This document shows positions 3,955-15,428 of a stretch of DNA of 34,001 bases, piece by piece. The notes beneath the pieces were generated by a model. It had not been told where the DNA came from, ran no database searches, and was given only the letters and a program-made list of their open reading frames with translations. This DNA comes from a virus. Numbering within the stretch: the stretch's first letter is position 1; every line of letters begins with the position of its first letter. The stretch covers positions 1 to 34,001 of the IMG/VR virus record IMGVR_UViG_3300027969_000022, one strand, 5' to 3'. A program made the position numbers and the translations under genes.

Positions 3955-4974
3955 ATGAAATTGCCTATTTACGATTTAATTATAAATCAAGATGAGAATA
4001 ATGATGCTGAGGTTTCTTTTGTGGCACTTGTTGACAGTCCGGCGATTAAAAAGGACTTTATTGCTTTTAAAGAAGAATTCATAGACCCAAATAAAGGAGA
4101 AAAAAAAGACGAGTTTTTACCACATTGCATAAGTTATGTAATAAATGAAGGTAAAGAAACAGAACAAGCAGTAGCAATATGCAATAGTTTATGGGAGCAG
4201 CATTTTGCAGGTTCAAAGATTTCATTTGATTATGATGATACTTTAAGCACAAGCAGAGGTAAAGAATTAGCAAAGAAAGAAATTGAGTCAGGTAATACAG
4301 TTTATATTATTTCAGCAAGAAGTGATAAAAATCCTATGTTATCAGTAGCAAAAGAATTAGGAATTCCTGAAAGTAGAGTTTATGCTACAGGAAGTAATAA
4401 AGCTAAAGTTGAAAAGGTTAAAGAATTAGGAATAGCAAAGCACTATGATAATAATGCAGATGTAATTAAAGAACTTGGCAGTATTGGAGAGAAATTTAGT
4501 ATAATGGCATTTGCTATTCAGTCAGAAAGTGAACATATTATTACTGGTCCTTTAATGATTCCTCAACAATTAATTTATAGAAATTCAGAGCAGTTTGGAG
4601 AACATTATGTTAAATTCTCAGTAGATACCATTAAACAGATTGCAATTAAGTTTAGCAAGAAGGGTTATCAAAAGAATGTAAATCTAATGCACGAAGCAGA
4701 TATGCAAGTTGATGGAGTTACAATGTTTGAGAGTTTTATTAGTGATTCTAAAAGAGGTATTAAACCAATGGAAGCATTTAAAGACTTGCCAGATGGAACT
4801 TGGTTTGGTAGTTTCTATGTAGAGAACCCTAAAGTATGGGAGATGATTAAACAAGGAAATGTAAAGGGATTTAGTGTAGAGGGAATGTTTGATTATGAAG
4901 CACCTAAAAAGGAAATATTAAATGAAGATCAAAAACAACTAGCAGAATTAAGAGAAATTTTAAACAGTTTTTAA
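3955..4974 (+). CDS. Prohead maturation protease (XkdF-like) with an inserted HAD-like domain
   Basis: The product has 339 aa. Residues 6-38 (VSFVALVDSPAIKKDF) and 180-315 look like the XkdF / S78-type capsid maturation protease. H246 (NLMHEAD) and S307 (KGFSVEG) are the likely catalytic residues. Between these halves are a Cys-Cys segment at 53-82 (LPHC58, AVAIC76NSLW), a pattern recurring in phage head proteins, and a HAD-like segment at 88-175. The latter has FDYDDTL (D92, D94, T96), YIISAR (S120) and a late HYDNN (D165). Downstream come the probable scaffold and the major capsid protein, the usual place for a head protease. Protease assignment is firm; activity of the HAD part is inferred. 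Confidence 0.82.
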   Translation: MKLPIYDLIINQDENNDAEVSFVALVDSPAIKKDFIAFKEEFIDPNKGEKKDEFLPHCISYVINEGKETEQAVAICNSLWEQHFAGSKISFDYDDTLSTSRGKELAKKEIESGNTVYIISARSDKNPMLSVAKELGIPESRVYATGSNKAKVEKVKELGIAKHYDNNADVIKELGSIGEKFSIMAFAIQSESEHIITGPLMIPQQLIYRNSEQFGEHYVKFSVDTIKQIAIKFSKKGYQKNVNLMHEADMQVDGVTMFESFISDSKRGIKPMEAFKDLPDGTWFGSFYVENPKVWEMIKQGNVKGFSVEGMFDYEAPKKEILNEDQKQLAELREILNSF

Positions 4975-4993
4975 AAATCAATATAATAGTATT

Positions 4994-5560
4994 ATGGAAG
5001 CAAAAGAAATTTTACAAAAAGTAAAGCAATATTTTAATGAATTAGCTGCTGCACCAATGGATATGCCTATGCCAGTTGAAACACTAGATTACGAATTAAA
5101 AGATGGAGGTAGTGTATCTATCGACAAACTAGAAGTTGGTGGTATAGTAATGATTGATGGTAATTCAGCTTTGCCGGGAGATGTTGAATTGGCTGATGGT
5201 ACAAAAATGACTATTGGCGATAATGGAGTTATTTCAGCAATCACTTTAGGTTCTGGAATGCAACCTGCTGAACCAGTAGGACAACCTGCATCAGAAGATA
5301 TGAATTCTAAATTTGCTGCATTTGAAACATTAACAAGCGAAAAGTTTGCTAATTATGAAATTAAGTTTTCTGCATACGAGCAACGTTTTGCTGATTACGA
5401 AGTTAAAATGAAAAAAGCAAACAAAGTAATTGATGAACTTTTAAAATTATCAACTTTACTTGTGGAAGCACCAGTACAAGCACCTGATAATTCAGTAAGA
5501 ACTTCAAATGCTTTTAAAGAAGTAGAAGAAAAGAAAACACTAAATATTTTATTTAACTAA
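4994..5560 (+). CDS. Probable capsid scaffolding protein
   Basis: The product has 188 aa and lies between the protease and the major capsid protein, the classic scaffold position. Residues 30-88 form a small glycine-rich, probably all-beta segment with repeated LxDGxxxxIxxxxxGxI patterns. Residues 90-100 are a Pro/Gln linker. Residues 104-157 form a likely coiled coil with regularly spaced Phe and Tyr. The capsid protein is short and shows no N-terminal delta-domain-like extension, which fits a separate scaffold. No catalytic motif is visible. The role is inferred from position and architecture. Confidence 0.6.
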   Translation: MEAKEILQKVKQYFNELAAAPMDMPMPVETLDYELKDGGSVSIDKLEVGGIVMIDGNSALPGDVELADGTKMTIGDNGVISAITLGSGMQPAEPVGQPASEDMNSKFAAFETLTSEKFANYEIKFSAYEQRFADYEVKMKKANKVIDELLKLSTLLVEAPVQAPDNSVRTSNAFKEVEEKKTLNILFN

Positions 5561-5574
5561 ACAATTATAAAAAA

Positions 5575-6540
5575 ATGGCATTAGCTTTTAGCGGATTATC
5601 CGCATACACAAAACAACTTGTTAAACCTCTATTGACTAGCGCAGTATTTGAGGCAAAAACACAACAATTAATCCTTGCAAATGGTATCGTTATTCCGAAC
5701 GTTAAAAGTTCAGTAGCTATTCCTTTGATGGAAACAGATGCAGTATTTGCTGCACAATCTTGTTCTTTTGATGCTTCAGGAACAACTACTTTCTCTCAGA
5801 GATCAATTACAGTAGGTAAAATTAAAGTAGAAGAAAAAATTTGCCCTAAAGATATGGAAGCATATTTTACACAAGAGGCATTGAAAGCAGGTTCTACTTA
5901 CGAAGATTTTGGTAATGCAGATTTCCAAAAAGCATTCTTAGATAAAAAGAATTTACGTATTGCTGCACAACTTGAAACTGCAATATGGCAGGGAGATGCA
6001 ACAGGTGCAACTGCAAACACAAATAAGTTTGATGGTTTACAGAAGTTAATTGCTGCAGGTTCTCCAGTTGATGCAAACGTTTCAGGATATACAGGTGTAA
6101 CTGGTTCTCCAATTGCAACAATTACTGCTTCTAATGTAGTAGCTGCAACTGAAGGTATTTATAAAGCAATTCCAGTTCAAGTATTAGCTAAAGGAGATGT
6201 TAAAATATTTGTTGGTAATGATTGGTATCGTTTATTGATTCTTGCTTACAGAGCATTGAATTTGTTTGCTTACAATCCACAAGATTCACAAGCTGCTTCA
6301 TTTATCCTACCGGGTACAAATGTAGAGATAGTTAGTGTTAATGGTTTGAACGGAACAGGAGATGCTTATGCAATTTCTTTAGGAAATATGGCAATGGCAG
6401 TTGATTTGGTTGATGAAGAAGGTTCTTACAAAATGTGGTATTCTGAAGATAACAATGATGTACGTTACCGTGTAGAATTTAAAATCGGTGTAAACGTAGC
6501 ATTCACAAATGAATGTGTAAAGTTCATCGCAGCAATCTAA
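5575..6540 (+). CDS. Major capsid protein
   Basis: The product has 321 aa. It follows the protease and scaffold genes. The N-terminus (about 8-60) is helical and then beta, followed by a long KxxKIKVEEKICPKDME segment (around residue 80-100) and a helix with LRIAAQLETAIWQGD, a pattern typical of HK97-fold capsid proteins in Bacteroidota phages. There is no signal peptide or enzymatic motif. The start is ATG after an A-rich leader (ATAAAAAAATG) with no Shine-Dalgarno, as expected for a Bacteroidota host. A hairpin follows the gene. Confidence 0.85.
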   Translation: MALAFSGLSAYTKQLVKPLLTSAVFEAKTQQLILANGIVIPNVKSSVAIPLMETDAVFAAQSCSFDASGTTTFSQRSITVGKIKVEEKICPKDMEAYFTQEALKAGSTYEDFGNADFQKAFLDKKNLRIAAQLETAIWQGDATGATANTNKFDGLQKLIAAGSPVDANVSGYTGVTGSPIATITASNVVAATEGIYKAIPVQVLAKGDVKIFVGNDWYRLLILAYRALNLFAYNPQDSQAASFILPGTNVEIVSVNGLNGTGDAYAISLGNMAMAVDLVDEEGSYKMWYSEDNNDVRYRVEFKIGVNVAFTNECVKFIAAI

Positions 6541-7168: not shown

Positions 7169-7537
7169 ATGATTAATTTAACAAAAGGACTTACTGAAAC
7201 AATTTATTTCACAGGTACTGAAAAGGCTACTATTAGTAACCCTTTCTTTTTATTTGTGTTTATCCACAGAGTAACAGGCGATGTGGTTAAGTTGATGGCT
7301 ACAAATCAAAGTATAACTGGCAGATACGATAAATTTGCTTTTACAGTTAATAACTATTTTAATTTAAAAGAAGAAGGATTTTGGAGTTATACGATTCATC
7401 AAAAAGTATCTTCAAGTGATTTAACAGTTGCCGGATTGATTGTAGAAGAAGGTTTTATGTATTTAAATCCTGCTACACCATTTGAGCCAACTAAATACGA
7501 AGAACAAAATAATAATTTCGTTACTTATGGACTATAA
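7169..7537 (+). CDS. Conserved phage structural-cluster protein, function unknown
   Basis: The product has 122 aa. It starts MINLTKGLTETIYFTGTEK and ends with a segment in which LIVEEGFMYLNP precedes a Tyr-rich tail. Proteins of this pattern are common beside portal genes in Bacteroidota phages; I cannot assign a role. It looks all-beta and has no membrane segment. The start lies four bases past a strong terminator, so the leader is very short. Its end overlaps the portal start by 11 bases. Confidence 0.75.
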   Translation: MINLTKGLTETIYFTGTEKATISNPFFLFVFIHRVTGDVVKLMATNQSITGRYDKFAFTVNNYFNLKEEGFWSYTIHQKVSSSDLTVAGLIVEEGFMYLNPATPFEPTKYEEQNNNFVTYGL

Positions 7538-9500
7538 AAATATTATTACAATAAAATTTGCACAAGCAGAGCAACCACGATTTGAAGAAAAGAGGGCAAA
7601 AGGTTATGTAGAATTTGGTCATCATAATAATTACCCTGAATACTTAATAGGATTATTTAATGAAAGTCCTAAGCACGGAGCAATTATTAAGAGTAAAACA
7701 AATTATATATTCGGTCAAGGGTGGGATGGAGTAGACCAAAAGGCTAATATTAAAGGAGAAACGTGGAATCAAATTACTAAAAAATGTATATTAGATGATG
7801 AACTTTTTGGTGGTTATTATCTACAAGTTATTTATAACTTATTAGGACAGATAAAAGATGTATACCACCTTGAATATCATAAAGTTAGAACTAATAAAGA
7901 ACAAAACGAATTTCAAGTAAAGAATGATTGGCAAGATAATAAAGAGAAACCTAGATGTTATCCTGCTTTTAATATTAATGATCCTGCCGGAAGTCAAATA
8001 TTATTTGTAAAACAATATAATCCTAAATCTGATATTTACCCTTTACCAAACTATTTTCAAGGTTTAAATTACATTGAGAGTGATGTACAGGTAAGCAGAC
8101 ATATTTTAGGTAATGCAAAAGATGGTTTTGTTGCTACTACTTTAATTAATTTAAATGGTGGAGAACCGGCAGAGGAAGCAAAAGAAGCAGTAGAAAGAGG
8201 AATTAAAAAGAAGTTTACTGGAAGCGAAGGCGATAGGGTTGTTATAATGTTTAACAAGTCAAAAGATAATAGTGCAGAGATTTTGCCTTTATCTTCTACT
8301 ATGTTAACAAAAGAAGATTTTACAAACGTTAATAATTTAATTCAACAAGAAATATTTGCTTGTCATCAGGTTACTTCGCCATCACTATTTGGTATTAAGA
8401 CAGAAGGGCAGTTAGGTGGTTCAACAGAGATAAGGGATGCTTATAAGATATTTGCTAATACTTATGTAAACGAAAGACAACAAGCGATTGAAGAAGTATT
8501 TAATCAGTTATTTAATTATGTAGGTATTAAAGGCGAATATGAATTAATACCAGTTGAACCATTAAGTTTTGAATTTAGTGAGTCAGTAATGGCTGCTAAT
8601 ATGACAAGGGATGAAATTAGAGAGAAGTTAGGTTTAGCATCTGAGGTTGTTACAAATTCAAGTATAAATGTAACAGATCAACCTATTGCTGCTTCAAATG
8701 ATTCTATAAAGAATCTTACCGGCAGACAGTATCAAAATGTAATGAGAATTGTTAGACAGTTTACTAATGGTAAACTTTCAAAGGAACAAGCTGCATTAAT
8801 GTTAAAGAATGGATTTTCTTTTACAGATAGCGATGTAAATACTTTCTTAGGTTTAGATTCAGATCCTGCTACATTTTCTGCTGAAGATAGAGATATGGAA
8901 TTGGTAGAAATGTTTGCCAATTTTAGTGATGAATTAGCTGATTATGAAATAATAAGTGAAAAATCTGCAAGAGAATTTAATCACTTTGCAGAGATTAAGC
9001 AGCTAAGCCAATTAGAAGCCGATATTTTAGGTTATATTAATAAAGATAAGAGAATCACTAGCGAAGGACTTGCACAGGTTTTAAAGGCAGATATAAAGGT
9101 TGTAGAGGCAACATTGCAAAGTTTAGTTGATAATAAGATATTAGATGTTAAAGAAGTTAAGATAGGTAAAGATACAGTAATTGAAAGAGTAAGAACAAAT
9201 GTTGAAGCAGATGCGCCTAAACCTAAAAACTTATTATCTATTGCTTATACCTATGCTTGGAGAAGTATTGTACCAAGTTCAGAAAGGAATACACCATCGC
9301 ATCCATCAAGAAAATTCTGTGTGCATATGATGGAACTTGCTAAGACTAAATTATGGTCAAGAGCAAGAATAGAACAAATGAGTGCTGCTTTAGGTTATTC
9401 GGTATTTGATAGAGTTGGTGGATTTTGGAATAATGATGGAGAAATAGATACACAATGCAGACACGAATGGAAGGCATTAATAATTCAAAAGAAAAAATAA
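7527..9500 (+). CDS. Portal protein with C-terminal MuF-like domain
   Basis: The product has 657 aa from the ATG at 7527, which overlaps the previous stop; the frame also extends upstream to a TTG at 7482, which is less likely. The portal ring is the DNA entry vertex. The N-terminal part (PEYLIGLFNESPKHGAIIKS, then YIFGQGW) and the central GSEGDRVVIMFN region match portals of Bacteroidota phages. About residues 485-560 look like a winged-helix segment. Residues 568-657 hold HPSRKFC598, GGFWNND and C644RHEW, the pattern of MuF-type head morphogenesis domains, here fused to the portal. It is followed directly by connector genes. Confidence 0.82.
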   Translation: MDYKNIITIKFAQAEQPRFEEKRAKGYVEFGHHNNYPEYLIGLFNESPKHGAIIKSKTNYIFGQGWDGVDQKANIKGETWNQITKKCILDDELFGGYYLQVIYNLLGQIKDVYHLEYHKVRTNKEQNEFQVKNDWQDNKEKPRCYPAFNINDPAGSQILFVKQYNPKSDIYPLPNYFQGLNYIESDVQVSRHILGNAKDGFVATTLINLNGGEPAEEAKEAVERGIKKKFTGSEGDRVVIMFNKSKDNSAEILPLSSTMLTKEDFTNVNNLIQQEIFACHQVTSPSLFGIKTEGQLGGSTEIRDAYKIFANTYVNERQQAIEEVFNQLFNYVGIKGEYELIPVEPLSFEFSESVMAANMTRDEIREKLGLASEVVTNSSINVTDQPIAASNDSIKNLTGRQYQNVMRIVRQFTNGKLSKEQAALMLKNGFSFTDSDVNTFLGLDSDPATFSAEDRDMELVEMFANFSDELADYEIISEKSAREFNHFAEIKQLSQLEADILGYINKDKRITSEGLAQVLKADIKVVEATLQSLVDNKILDVKEVKIGKDTVIERVRTNVEADAPKPKNLLSIAYTYAWRSIVPSSERNTPSHPSRKFCVHMMELAKTKLWSRARIEQMSAALGYSVFDRVGGFWNNDGEIDTQCRHEWKALIIQKKK

Positions 9501-10329: not shown

Positions 10330-10764
10330 ATGACTTACAACCAATTAATAACAACAATAACAAGTCTATTGCAAAGCCACGCAATGATAAAGACTGCAAA
10401 GTACGCAACACCGAAAGAGTGGCTATTAAGAGACAGTCAACCTGATTATCCTATAGCTTGTTTTTCTATTAATTCAGGTAGTTTAAATATTGGTAGAGAA
10501 CAAGTTTTTAATGTTCAATTTTTCTTTTTAGACAAAAGCGGTAAAGAGGCAGAATATGAGAATGATGTAATAAGTGACCAAGTGCAGATTGCTTCTGATA
10601 TTTTAAGTTTAATGAGAACAAGTAGAAAGATTTACTCAATAGATGATAATGTTACCTTTAATGGTATATCGGATAAGTACGAAGATTATTTAGCAGGAGT
10701 AGAGTTAACAATTAATATTTCAACCCAAAACGAATTCACTGGATGCAACGTGCCATTATTATAA
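10330..10764 (+). CDS. Neck / tail completion-like protein
   Basis: The product has 144 aa. The pattern is an N-terminal helix, a strand with YPIACFSI, then VFNVQFFFLDKSGKE, a helix (IASDILSLM) and a final strand (VELTINIST). This arrangement resembles tail-terminator or neck proteins that cap the tail. It is placed between the connector and the tail fibre. Its 3' end overlaps the fibre gene by 22 bases. Confidence 0.55.
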   Translation: MTYNQLITTITSLLQSHAMIKTAKYATPKEWLLRDSQPDYPIACFSINSGSLNIGREQVFNVQFFFLDKSGKEAEYENDVISDQVQIASDILSLMRTSRKIYSIDDNVTFNGISDKYEDYLAGVELTINISTQNEFTGCNVPLL

Positions 10765-13700
10765 TTACATTAATACTTTTATCTTTTGGATTAAAAGCGC
10801 AGGTTTATCAAGCTATGCCACAGGCAGGATATGGACCAGTTAAACGTATGCTATTTGATAGTGTTTTAACTATTCCATTGAATATCAATCAGTTAAGAAA
10901 TATAACAGGTGGTAGAGATGCCGGACAGATAAGATATAATGTAACTGATAGTGGACTTTATGTATATAGTGGTTATCAATGGATTAAAGCAAACTTAGAT
11001 AGTAGTAATATTTCAAATAGAATTAACGGCAAATTAAATATAAGCGATACGGCACAAATGCTTAGTGTATATTTAAGAAAGAGAGATACAATTTCTTTGT
11101 CAAATAGAATTGATTTAAGGGTTAAATATTCCGATACTGCAGCAATGCTTTTGCCATATTTACGCAAACTAGACACGGCAAGTTTATCAAGAAGAATTGA
11201 TGAAAAACAAAATTTAATTAAATTAACTACTAATTTTAAAAGTGGTGCAGCAACATTAATAAGAGATACTTTAAATATCCCTAAGTATAGCGATACATTA
11301 ACTGCTTATGTTCCTTATGTTGGAGCAACTACCGATGTTACATTAGGAGATTATGGATTAAGAGCAAATAAATTAAAATCTGACTTTTTACTTGAATTAA
11401 AAAACCAACAAAACATTCAAAATGAAACCTTAGATTATACAAGTATAGGAGCAACAAGACAAAGTTTCTCATATTATACTCAATGGATGCAAGGGCAAAC
11501 AACATATACACAAGGTAGTATTTTTATTTATTCTAATTTAGGACAACAAAGTAATACAAGGCTTTATACTTTACCTGTAAGAGATGGTACTTTAGCATTG
11601 GTTGAGGACACGGTTAATTTATCAAATAGAATTAATTTAAAGGCAGATAAATCTACAACCTTAACAATCAACGGACAAACCTATGATTTAAGTGCAAACA
11701 GAACTTGGACTATCCCTACTTTTGATTCTACTTCTATATCAAATAGAATAAATTTAAAACTTAATATCAGCGATACTGCAGCAATGCTTAGTCCTTACCT
11801 TAGAAAAGCAGATACAAGTTCATTATCTAATAGGATTGATTTAAGAGTAAAATATAGTGATACTGCTGCAATGCTAAGTCCTTATTTAAAGAGTGCAGTT
11901 ACAAGTGTAGGTTTATCTATGCCGGCAGCATTTACGGTCACTAATAGCCCTGTAACAAGCACAGGAACAATTGCAGTAACAGGGGCAGGAACGGCAGCAC
12001 AATATATAAGGGGCGATGGTCAATTAGCTACTTTGCCATCAGGCGCAATCGGTGGTAGTTCGGTAGCTTACTATTTAAATGGTAGTGTTAATCAAGGTAC
12101 AATAGGCGGAAGCGTTTATTATGAAATGAATAAGACTCCAATTATTGGTGCAGGTACTGATTTTTCACTAGCAGGAAATGGTTTAATATCTCAATTTATA
12201 ACTGATGTAGCAGACCCAAATAGACTTCAAATTCCTGCTGGTAACTGGAATTTTGAAATGTATATGAGTGCATCTTCTTCAGGTGGTACTCCTAAATTCT
12301 ATGTTGAACTACTCAAATATGATGGAACAAATTTTACAAGTATTGCATCATCATCTGCAAATCCCGAAGCAATTACTAACGGAACTACAATAGATTTATA
12401 TGTAACTGCTTTGGCAATTCCTCAAACAACTTTACTAGCTACTGATAGACTTGCAATAAGAGTTTACATTGTTAATAGTACAGGCGGTAGGACAATTACA
12501 ATGCACACAGAAAATTCACATCTTTGTGAAATTATTACAAACTTTGCCGGTGGAGTTAGTGCGTTAAATGGATTAACTGCAAATACTCAATACTTAGCAG
12601 TAGGAACAAGTGGCAATGACTTTGCAATTAATAGCTTAACAGATACACATACATTTAATTTACCTACTGCTTCTTCAACTAAAAGAGGTGCTTTATCAAG
12701 TGCTGATTGGAGTACATTTAATGGTAAAATGAATTATAGTGATACTGCTTCTTTGTCTAATAGAATAAATTTAAAATTAAATTCTAGTGATACAGTTTCT
12801 TTATCTAATCGTATAAATACAAAATTAAATTCTACTGATACTGCAAGTTTATCAAATCGTATCAATGCAAAAGCGGATGCACTGAGTGGAACTACTAACA
12901 CAGTACCTAAATTTACTTCAGGAACTACAATAGGAAATAGTAATATTAAAGACAACGGAAGTGCGGTAAGTGTAAATACAACGGCAGGTTCATTCGGTGC
13001 TTTACAAGTTGGAAGCTACAATGGAAATATTTTAATGAATACTACTAATACAAGTGGCGGTTTAATATTTCAAAATACATCATCATCTAATAAGTTATGG
13101 GATTTTTCTTCTGATAACAATGATTTGGCTTTTAATGAATCAAATGTTGCTCCAGTAATAAAATTAAAAGCAGGTGGTAATGTTCAAGTATATAATCTAT
13201 CAGGCACAGGCACTAGAATGGTAGTGGCAGATTTAAATGGTGTATTATCTACACAAGCAATTAGTAGTGATACAACTTCATTAAGTAACCGAATCAATTT
13301 AAAATTAAACATAAGTGATACTGCTTCTATGCTTAGCGGATATCAAAGCGCAATTAATTCTAAACAAGCAACAATAACATTAACTACCACAGGCACAAGT
13401 GGAGCAGCAACCTTTAGTTCTAATACTTTAAACATACCACAATATCAAGCTGCCGGAACTTATGTTACAAGTGTTACAGGAACTTCTCCAATAGTATCAA
13501 GCGGAGGAACTACACCTGCTATTTCTATTCCTGCTGCAACCAGTTCAGTAAATGGATATTTAAGTTCTACTGATTGGAGTACGTTTAATGGTAAAGTTTC
13601 TACTGCAACATTAAGTGGATATCTACCATTAACAGGTGGAGCATTAACTGGTTCTTTATCTATTACTTCTGGTTCTCCTTATGCACTTGATGTAATTGGT

Positions 13701-15428
13701 ACTGCAAGAATATCAGGCAACGTAACATTAACTGGTACTTATACAGATTTTAGACAGACAAGTTATTTAAGATTTTCAAATACAGGTGGCGGTACTCGTT
13801 GGGGATATATACAACACGATGGAACTAATATGGCTTTCTTTAATGATATTGGCGGAGGTGCTTTTACATTTAATAAAGCTGCTTCATTTGCTAGTAGTAT
13901 AGTTACAGGTGGTGGAACAATTGATGCATCATTACCTGAAATACAAGCTAGTGGTACTATAATGTCAACAGGTTCTTCTCTAGCTGCTGCACCTACAACT
14001 GCTAGTGTTGTTTTAGATTATCAATCAGCAAGTAATTCAGGTAGATTAATGGCAGGTAGTGCAGGGGCTTGGAATAAAAATATTGCTATTAATCCTTATG
14101 GAGGTAATACAATGATTGGCACCACAACAGATGCAGGATATAAACTAGATGTTAATGGTACAGGAAGGTTTAGTGCTACAGATGCTTCATATCCATTAAC
14201 TTTAAGTAGTACAGTATCAGCTGCTAACCAAAATTATTTAAAATTTGCTGCTGGAGGAACAACAATAGGAACTATATATAGACCAAGTGGAACAAATGCT
14301 GTAGCTATAACTACAAATTATGAAGCATTACAAATATTAAATGGTCTTGCTGTAACAGGAGCAGCTACATTCTCTAGTAGTGTAATGGTAAATAATTCTA
14401 CTGTTTCAACTGAAGGATTAAGTGTACAATATAATCAAGCTAAAACTTATACTACACAAACTGCCGTATCAAGATGGCATTCAAACGAATCAAGTGGCTC
14501 ACAATTTAAATTAAATTTATTTGCTATTGGAAATGCTACAGGTTCATCAAGAGTATTTAAATTTCAAACTTCAAATGAAGGAGTAGCAAATGATGGAGTA
14601 TTATCATTTCAATCAGATGGGGGCAATGTAGGAATAGGAACTACAAGTCCAAGTAGTTATGGTAATTTAACAGTAGTTATGCCATCAGCTTCTAATGGAA
14701 CAGGTATCGTAGTTAAAGCAATAAATGATGGAGGTTCTTCTTCTCAACCTGCATTAACATATTTAAACGGGAGTGGCAATCCTATTGCTCAAATTGTAGC
14801 TGATAATGGAACAGGATATTTAGCGTTTAATACAAGTACAAGCAACGTAGAAAGAATGCGAATATTAAGTTCATCTGGTAATATTCAAATGGGTGGTACA
14901 ACTGCTGCTAGTGCAAGATTATTTGTTAAAGGTATTTCTACTTCAAGCGCAGATGTTACTTTACTTTTAAATGATATAAATAATGCAGATTTATTTTATG
15001 TCAGAAACGATGGTTTTATATTGACAGGTAATAGGTCAGTATCTCCGTATAATAATAGTACTACAGGTAGGTCAATGGTAATTGAACCTAGTGGTGGATT
15101 AGGTTATTTAGTATCTACTAGAGAATCAAAAGCAAATATAAAATCTATAAATAATATTAACTTTATAAATCAACTTAATCCAGTATCATTTAATTATCGG
15201 AAAAAAAATAACGGAACAAATACTTTTACTAATGAAGTATATGATAATAAAACTTATGGATTTATAGCAGATGAGGTTGAAAAGGTAAATAAAGATTTAG
15301 TTTTTTATGACATTGCAAAAGATGGTACAAAGAAATTAGCAGGAGTTGAGTATAATAGTATGATAGCTATATTAGTTAAAGCTGTTCAAGAATTACAAAA
15401 AAGAATTGAAATATTAGAAAACAAATAA
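10743..15428 (+). CDS. Tail fibre with signal-peptide-like N-terminus and S74 chaperone domain
   Basis: The product has 1561 aa, the largest protein here. Residues 1-20 (MQRAIIIITLILLSFGLKAQ) look like a Sec signal peptide. Many copies of SDTxSLSNRINxKxN occur in the first 900 residues and suggest a trimeric coiled stalk. Much of the rest is Gly/Ser/Thr/Asn-rich beta sequence. The C-terminus (from about 1450) is an intramolecular chaperone of the S74 type: S1458 and K1463 have the spacing of the self-cleavage dyad, followed by LNPVSFNYR, YGFIADEVE and a final coiled coil. In known families the chaperone trimerises the fibre and is cut off. It probably binds the host receptor. Confidence 0.85.
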   Translation: MQRAIIIITLILLSFGLKAQVYQAMPQAGYGPVKRMLFDSVLTIPLNINQLRNITGGRDAGQIRYNVTDSGLYVYSGYQWIKANLDSSNISNRINGKLNISDTAQMLSVYLRKRDTISLSNRIDLRVKYSDTAAMLLPYLRKLDTASLSRRIDEKQNLIKLTTNFKSGAATLIRDTLNIPKYSDTLTAYVPYVGATTDVTLGDYGLRANKLKSDFLLELKNQQNIQNETLDYTSIGATRQSFSYYTQWMQGQTTYTQGSIFIYSNLGQQSNTRLYTLPVRDGTLALVEDTVNLSNRINLKADKSTTLTINGQTYDLSANRTWTIPTFDSTSISNRINLKLNISDTAAMLSPYLRKADTSSLSNRIDLRVKYSDTAAMLSPYLKSAVTSVGLSMPAAFTVTNSPVTSTGTIAVTGAGTAAQYIRGDGQLATLPSGAIGGSSVAYYLNGSVNQGTIGGSVYYEMNKTPIIGAGTDFSLAGNGLISQFITDVADPNRLQIPAGNWNFEMYMSASSSGGTPKFYVELLKYDGTNFTSIASSSANPEAITNGTTIDLYVTALAIPQTTLLATDRLAIRVYIVNSTGGRTITMHTENSHLCEIITNFAGGVSALNGLTANTQYLAVGTSGNDFAINSLTDTHTFNLPTASSTKRGALSSADWSTFNGKMNYSDTASLSNRINLKLNSSDTVSLSNRINTKLNSTDTASLSNRINAKADALSGTTNTVPKFTSGTTIGNSNIKDNGSAVSVNTTAGSFGALQVGSYNGNILMNTTNTSGGLIFQNTSSSNKLWDFSSDNNDLAFNESNVAPVIKLKAGGNVQVYNLSGTGTRMVVADLNGVLSTQAISSDTTSLSNRINLKLNISDTASMLSGYQSAINSKQATITLTTTGTSGAATFSSNTLNIPQYQAAGTYVTSVTGTSPIVSSGGTTPAISIPAATSSVNGYLSSTDWSTFNGKVSTATLSGYLPLTGGALTGSLSITSGSPYALDVIGTARISGNVTLTGTYTDFRQTSYLRFSNTGGGTRWGYIQHDGTNMAFFNDIGGGAFTFNKAASFASSIVTGGGTIDASLPEIQASGTIMSTGSSLAAAPTTASVVLDYQSASNSGRLMAGSAGAWNKNIAINPYGGNTMIGTTTDAGYKLDVNGTGRFSATDASYPLTLSSTVSAANQNYLKFAAGGTTIGTIYRPSGTNAVAITTNYEALQILNGLAVTGAATFSSSVMVNNSTVSTEGLSVQYNQAKTYTTQTAVSRWHSNESSGSQFKLNLFAIGNATGSSRVFKFQTSNEGVANDGVLSFQSDGGNVGIGTTSPSSYGNLTVVMPSASNGTGIVVKAINDGGSSSQPALTYLNGSGNPIAQIVADNGTGYLAFNTSTSNVERMRILSSSGNIQMGGTTAASARLFVKGISTSSADVTLLLNDINNADLFYVRNDGFILTGNRSVSPYNNSTTGRSMVIEPSGGLGYLVSTRESKANIKSINNINFINQLNPVSFNYRKKNNGTNTFTNEVYDNKTYGFIADEVEKVNKDLVFYDIAKDGTKKLAGVEYNSMIAILVKAVQELQKRIEILENK
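12738..12881 (+). repeat. Three tandem 48-bp repeats in the fibre gene
   Basis: Units at 12738-12785, 12786-12833 and 12834-12881 encode 16-residue repeats of the form S/T-D-T-x-S-L-S-N-R-I-N-x-K-x-x-x. Diverged copies of the same unit occur near 11010, 11090, 11610, 11730, 11810 and 13266. The in-phase DNA repeats could allow stalk-length change by recombination. Confidence 0.75.

Follow-up and report, generated by a model that had tools for sequence, protein, structure and literature searches.

What is a phosphatase-like domain doing inside a capsid maturation protease? This question is raised by an ORF in the head gene cluster of the window (the whole stretch of 34,001 nucleotides analysed here), with a probable scaffold gene, a probable capsid gene, and a portal gene downstream (Table 1). 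In this ORF, the first-pass annotation had recognized an XkdF-type protease flanking a Cys-Cys (CC) segment and a HAD-like segment. Both were borne out, by a protease match to PF14550 and by the Cys pair C58/C76, and the proposed motif residues D92-x-D94-x-T96, S120, and D165 lie at the positions given there.

Table 1. Coordinates of the protease ORF, its parts, and neighbouring head genes in the window.
Feature	Position	Strand	Remarks
XkdF-type prohead protease with inserted CC and HAD	3955..4974	+	339 aa, ORF intact
XN, protease N-terminal segment, residues 1-41	3955..4077	+	Joined directly to the C part where the loop is empty (L068, L037, L329-L345)
CC module, residues 42-85	4078..4209	+	Helical hairpin; C58 and C76
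HAD module, residues 86-181	4210..4497	+	Capless fold; D92, D94, T96, S120, R122, K151, H163, D165, N166, N167
XC, catalytic protease part, residues 184-318	4504..4908	+	PF14550 at 189-311
Probable scaffold protein	4994..5560	+	Coiled-coil repeats (KFA/RFA); gene conserved downstream of the protease; assigned from position and composition
Probable major capsid protein	5575..6540	+	phrog_11320 (function unknown), 1e-19; weak matches to phrog_752 (major head protein) and phrog_1623; assigned partly from position
Portal protein	7482..9500	+	C-terminal MuF-like 'C...CRHEW' module

In a Pfam profile search, residues 189-311 match Peptidase_S78_2/XkdF (PF14550) with an E-value of 2.4e-12 and 47.4 bits, the curated cutoff for this family being 24 bits. 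H246, S307, and E309, which are presumably catalytic, are invariant in an alignment of 58 relatives whether inserts are present or absent, and the protease therefore looks functional. The earlier description of two protease halves holds in part: the interruption is real, but the Pfam protease domain is confined to the C part. The first 41 residues are recognized as protease by their equivalence to the N-terminus of relatives without an interruption, which are 195-199 aa long (e.g., L037 and L068). The insert, comprising the CC and HAD modules (about residues 42-184), occupies the loop after the second N-terminal strand of the protease. The CC module leads most inserts and also occurs alone at this site; it gave a weak match to phrog_2423 and, as sole query, no match among phage records. 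A chimeric assembly or a frameshift artefact was rejected on the basis of many independent contigs and exact in-frame module boundaries. Relatives of the whole protein are encoded in 84 viral stretches and the HAD module in 278, a number which, along with near-identical flanks around empty or less-filled versions, excludes chance.

With regard to the HAD module, the independent fold suspected earlier is supported by a confident Rossmannoid prediction at residues 85-184, in which residues 91-170 reach pLDDT values of mostly 82-94 and follow the Rossmannoid strand/helix order (AlphaFold2, 58-row alignment). Using VIA-align, residues 85-184 matched human phosphoserine phosphatase (PSPH) with a Z of 11.5 and the T4 Pnkp 3'-phosphatase with a Z of 11.3 (2.2 Å, 97 residues), while AphA and MDP-1 were also matched at lower Z; HAD-phosphatase matches spanned Z 10-11.5 across 94-101 residues. 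Universal stress proteins, which are unrelated Rossmann-like folds, reached similar Z, so the motifs weigh more than Z for the HAD assignment. KdsC phosphatases came first in the Foldseek list for the module (3e-4).

HAD motifs I-IV are complete: in the predicted structure, strand 88-91 leads into D92-x-D94 (motif I), and K151 (motif III) is present and invariant besides D92/D94, S120, and D165. D92, D94, R122, K151, H163, and D165 are invariant in all 93 fused copies and retained almost everywhere in the 55 copies not fused to XkdF, while position 120 is S or T and position 96 is T or V. The site is thus complete throughout the fused copies, contrary to the possibility, raised at first pass, of a defective site in all relatives. 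The module is under purifying selection (median dN/dS about 0.09, with 0.045 for XC), which together with the invariant catalytic residues rules out a pseudo-enzyme.

No Pfam HAD family matched the module above cutoff. The nearest families are phrog_4256 and phrog_4919 (function unknown), which match 10 of 14 HAD members, and weak matches were obtained to phrog_8630 (nucleotidase) and the Pfam 5-nucleotidase. A Pfam match to ADH_zinc_N (5e-4) was below cutoff and taken as a generic Rossmann match rather than as the identity of the module. Nor was the module assigned to Pnkp, for lack of specificity, since its Z is level with that of PSPH and T4 Pnkp was not retrieved by the HAD sequence profile; fold similarity is uninformative on the substrate. 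As predicted from sequence, the module is a folded, catalytically complete, and autonomous capless HAD with putative phosphohydrolase activity.

Rather than the one-off for which it was first taken, the insert represents one among the states of a cassette site that is widespread. Module profiles distinguished 27 module arrangements in 184 distinct XkdF proteases from 328 loci, which were drawn by similarity, with some contigs fetched more than once, so that the counts are not population frequencies. The protease loop, or less often the C-terminus (in a few XkdF proteases), holds CC, HAD, DYP, HiPIP-like, Zn-ribbon (ZnR), MuF-like, or other modules, or is empty. The search suggested earlier for other head proteases with the same insertion thus retrieved CC-HAD and further HAD-bearing arrangements. 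The arrangements include empty, CC, CC-HAD, CC-DYP, CC-HAD-DYP, CC-DYP-HAD, and CC-HiPIP-HAD, as well as CC-E-DYP, DYP-CC-HAD, HAD-ZnR-CC-DYP, and MuF-like-HAD-DYP. The cassette-bearing viruses form a large group whose hosts are mostly Bacteroidetes. HAD is dispensable, since half of the 26 records checked were without any HAD, and ten records with an empty or CC-only protease had none anywhere.

Among the other modules, a Cys-rich HiPIP-like module was observed in the same protease site of L007, L044, L112, L118, and L285. It matches phage proteins that carry the annotation 'high potential iron-sulfur protein', one of which adjoins capsid maturation proteases, and is possibly an Fe-S domain; its model has a pLDDT of about 30. 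KTSC domains were seen in similar module-rich proteins of L184 and L209, one of which is a protease.

Filled and less-filled proteases from viruses with 92-98% identity in the flanking DNA testify to recent changes at the site. For example, L003 (CC-HAD) and L019 (CC without HAD) share 95.7% DNA identity on both sides, and L037 (empty) and L279 (CC-HAD) have flanks that are 98% and 93% identical. When L017 is aligned with L003, the alignment runs to the end of CC and restarts at XC, with 11 bp versus 296 bp between. Module order may also be opposite, as in L117 (HAD-DYP) and L141 (DYP-HAD). There is almost no correlation between DYP identity and protease identity (r 0.13): XC is 100% identical in L051 and L052 and DYP 55%, while L072 and L195 have DYP 91% identical and XC 26%. 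The corresponding r for HAD is 0.75, and HAD is therefore exchanged less than DYP. These sequence comparisons show that modules are gained, lost, swapped, and reordered at the site in closely related viruses, and the loop would accordingly be an insertion-tolerant docking site for exchangeable modules.

The modules are also encoded as separate genes: 33 ORFs consist of CC-HAD alone, and others of HAD, DYP, or CC-DYP alone. Where the context is visible, most of them lie just upstream of TerS/TerL, from which a ParB-like gene sometimes separates them; in L255, the neighbour is the terminase large subunit according to PHROGs. An XkdF protease is present in 18 of 20 records picked from this set, and its loop is empty in 17 of the 18 (two of the 17 carry DYP at the C-terminus); the eighteenth, G016, has a loaded protease and not a separate gene. 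In L166, an empty protease is followed by an overlapping 97-aa HAD gene. A second HAD copy was absent from every locus and record searched, and a second DYP copy from the 41 examined. No obvious head-targeting signal was found in the separate module genes, except possibly CC; a targeting role of CC is a guess, as CC is common without any enzyme.

Among the relatives of the HAD module are HADs from Bacteroidetes chromosomes and prophages. An Empedobacter prophage has a distant, separate HAD gene in its head gene cluster (L170:5995-6399), where it overlaps the next head gene. In Elemovirus Flavobacterium phages, an HAD family hydrolase with 31% identity to the module has a gene of its own (L164:2977-3330), which lies close to GroES/GroEL and a tail fibre gene.

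Head proteins other than XkdF proteases also carry these modules. In the window, the portal ends with the MuF-like 'C...CRHEW' module, which was also observed inside the prohead proteases of L153, L202, and L236, implying an exchange of modules between the two kinds of protein. A head protease of a different family, Peptidase_S78 (2.3e-21), is preceded by HAD-DYP in L220. The DYP module is about 100 aa long, with the pattern 'DYP...CGT.VG..RA.QLA...CG..MW.AWGG', forms part of phrog_2859, and was noted in L159, L160, L161, L075, L215, L217, L220-L222, L229, L230, and L250. Its fusion partners include S78 proteases (L215, L222, and L250) and portals (L217, L229, and L230); among isolates, DYP occurs in the HGTV-1 prohead protease, the HRTV-28 portal/MuF protein, and the protease-capsid polyprotein of Roseobacter phage CRP-811. 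DYP thus occurs, across viruses of bacteria and haloarchaea, in portals, in head proteases, and in one capsid polyprotein, and some isolate matches to modules are not head proteins. The repeated fusion to head proteins points to the prohead interior as a possible module location. Further downstream, positions 10743-15428 of the window encode a protein of 1561 aa that contains repeated 'DTASLSNRINLK' units and whose C-terminus is chaperone-like; it is presumably a tail fibre or spike.

Prohead proteases assemble inside the prohead and are often lost or degraded in maturation. We consider it moderately probable that the ORF encodes a working XkdF protease with exchangeable accessory modules, whose fused HAD enters the prohead and acts in head or host. 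Because the protease is assembled inside the prohead, a HAD fused to it would be co-incorporated, a step to which we give even chances. On maturation, the HAD would either stay attached to the protease or be cut from it, and it would then work inside the head, or in the host following DNA ejection. Its probable role would be that of a phosphatase whose substrate is a nucleic-acid end or a small phosphorylated molecule, and phosphatase action in the head or after ejection seems to us to fall just short of an even chance. As prohead proteases are often lost or degraded, the module may not remain in the virion; where HAD is a separate gene, the enzyme would act without covalent attachment. Delivery of an enzyme into the prohead, one of two roles proposed at first pass, is the best-supported functional reading, with carriage, release, and substrate all putative. 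It is also possible, though doubtful, that the loop is an evolved, combinatorial cargo bay through which small enzymes and metal-binding modules, fused to the protease, are loaded into the prohead, the cargo perhaps being self-cleaved and delivered with the genome as a fast-changing early-infection toolkit.

The main rival to delivery is that HAD processes DNA ends or nucleotides in genome packaging, for instance as a 3'-phosphatase on nicked or cut ends. The location of separate copies beside the terminase genes, the presence of the T4 Pnkp 3'-phosphatase among the best structural matches, and the invariance of R122 of the SAR motif are consistent with it. However, many close relatives package without HAD, the HiPIP-like, DYP, and CC modules share both locations without evidently being end-processing enzymes, and the Z of Pnkp is tied with those of phosphoserine phosphatase and AphA, which together make a packaging role unlikely. 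A second view is that the modules are morons or accessory metabolic genes, for which fusion only secures late in-frame expression and the protease location is meaningless. An insertion-tolerant loop, modules that are dispensable and also exist as free genes, and the Bacteroidetes chromosomal and prophage relatives would all suit such genes. Yet the hosts found for the fused modules are time and again head proteins (portals, a capsid polyprotein, and proteases of two families), and the free copies lie in the packaging/head cluster, so that we rate this view as quite unlikely.

The other role proposed at first pass was control of capsid maturation, with the insert regulating the protease as, e.g., a phosphate sensor or a steric timer. 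The protease chain is indeed interrupted near its N-terminal strands, but unrelated folds occupy the same site, near-identical phages have it empty or filled, and a separate HAD gene beside the terminase may accompany an empty loop. The coexistence of unrelated modules, empty sites, and separate genes disfavours maturation control, which is highly improbable.

With regard to delivery, a cargo might be released by self-cleavage at the module junctions. Of the 68 CC|HAD junctions inside proteases, 66 have F-[A/S], versus 4 of 34 outside, the fused copies in this count being related by descent. Within most modules F-[A/S] is rare, and motifs of a similar kind (KFA/RFA) are repeated in the scaffold. 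As cleavage sites, however, the F-A junctions are no more than a lead: LA/MA is frequent at DYP|HAD junctions inside proteases, descent is shared, and the scaffold motif fits a coiled-coil heptad. Self-release of the module at its junctions would seem rather unlikely. In addition, a Met was observed in junctions such as REKMAGEKISID and EQIDREKMVVNPRS exactly at the expected start of a free-standing module gene, as if these residues were fossil start codons of fused genes.

In many viruses, an essential capsid-maturation enzyme thus serves as a platform into which exchangeable domains of unrelated kinds are plugged, and natural empty/filled protease pairs make module function testable. Frequent 'hypothetical' modules (CC, DYP, HiPIP-like, and phrog_4256/4919/2423/2859) acquire a common context. 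If the modules enter the virion, they would represent a second route for accessory enzymes of tailed phages beside MuF and ejected internal proteins, and a natural template for protein loading into capsids.

Phage domain mosaicism and head-carried effectors are already known, and a combinatorial internal site in a prohead protease was not found in the literature searched; a full-text search, beyond whose reach subscription papers lie, returned no paper on enzyme cassettes in prohead proteases. Domain exchange between phage proteins was reported to be ongoing (Smug et al. 2023, PMC10684548); the parts of that study seen here concern tail, replication, and lysis proteins, with capsid assembly only as a class and no head-protease cassettes. 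In fold and in the four catalytic motifs, the HAD module resembles the capless phosphatases Pnkp 3'-phosphatase, MDP-1, and KdsC; it is distinguished by a length of about 96 aa without a cap and by its setting within a viral protease.

MuF polymorphic toxins of temperate phages bear variable enzymatic domains on a head/packaging protein, and their delivery by phages has been proposed (Jamet et al. 2017, PMC5576092). The present system likewise has variable domains on a head protein, with a MuF-like module at the portal C-terminus and in some proteases. The layout of a MuF domain with a C-terminal toxin is absent from the protease ORF, which has no MuF-like module and an internal HAD; in contrast to MuF toxins, the modules are borne mainly by the prohead protease and in an internal loop, they are serial and reordered, the domains are not toxin-like, and no immunity gene was noticed. 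T4 internal proteins (IPs) and Alt and the SPN3US head proteins are incorporated into the prohead, processed by the protease, and ejected with DNA (PMC7411985), and P1 DarA is an ejected head protein processed by the prohead protease (PMC12810830). The modules would resemble T4 internal proteins/Alt, the SPN3US ejection proteins, and P1 DarA/Hdf in prohead incorporation, which is proposed here from sequence. However, the cargo of T4, SPN3US, and P1 consists of separate substrates with propeptides, whereas the putative cargo described here is fused into the protease itself.
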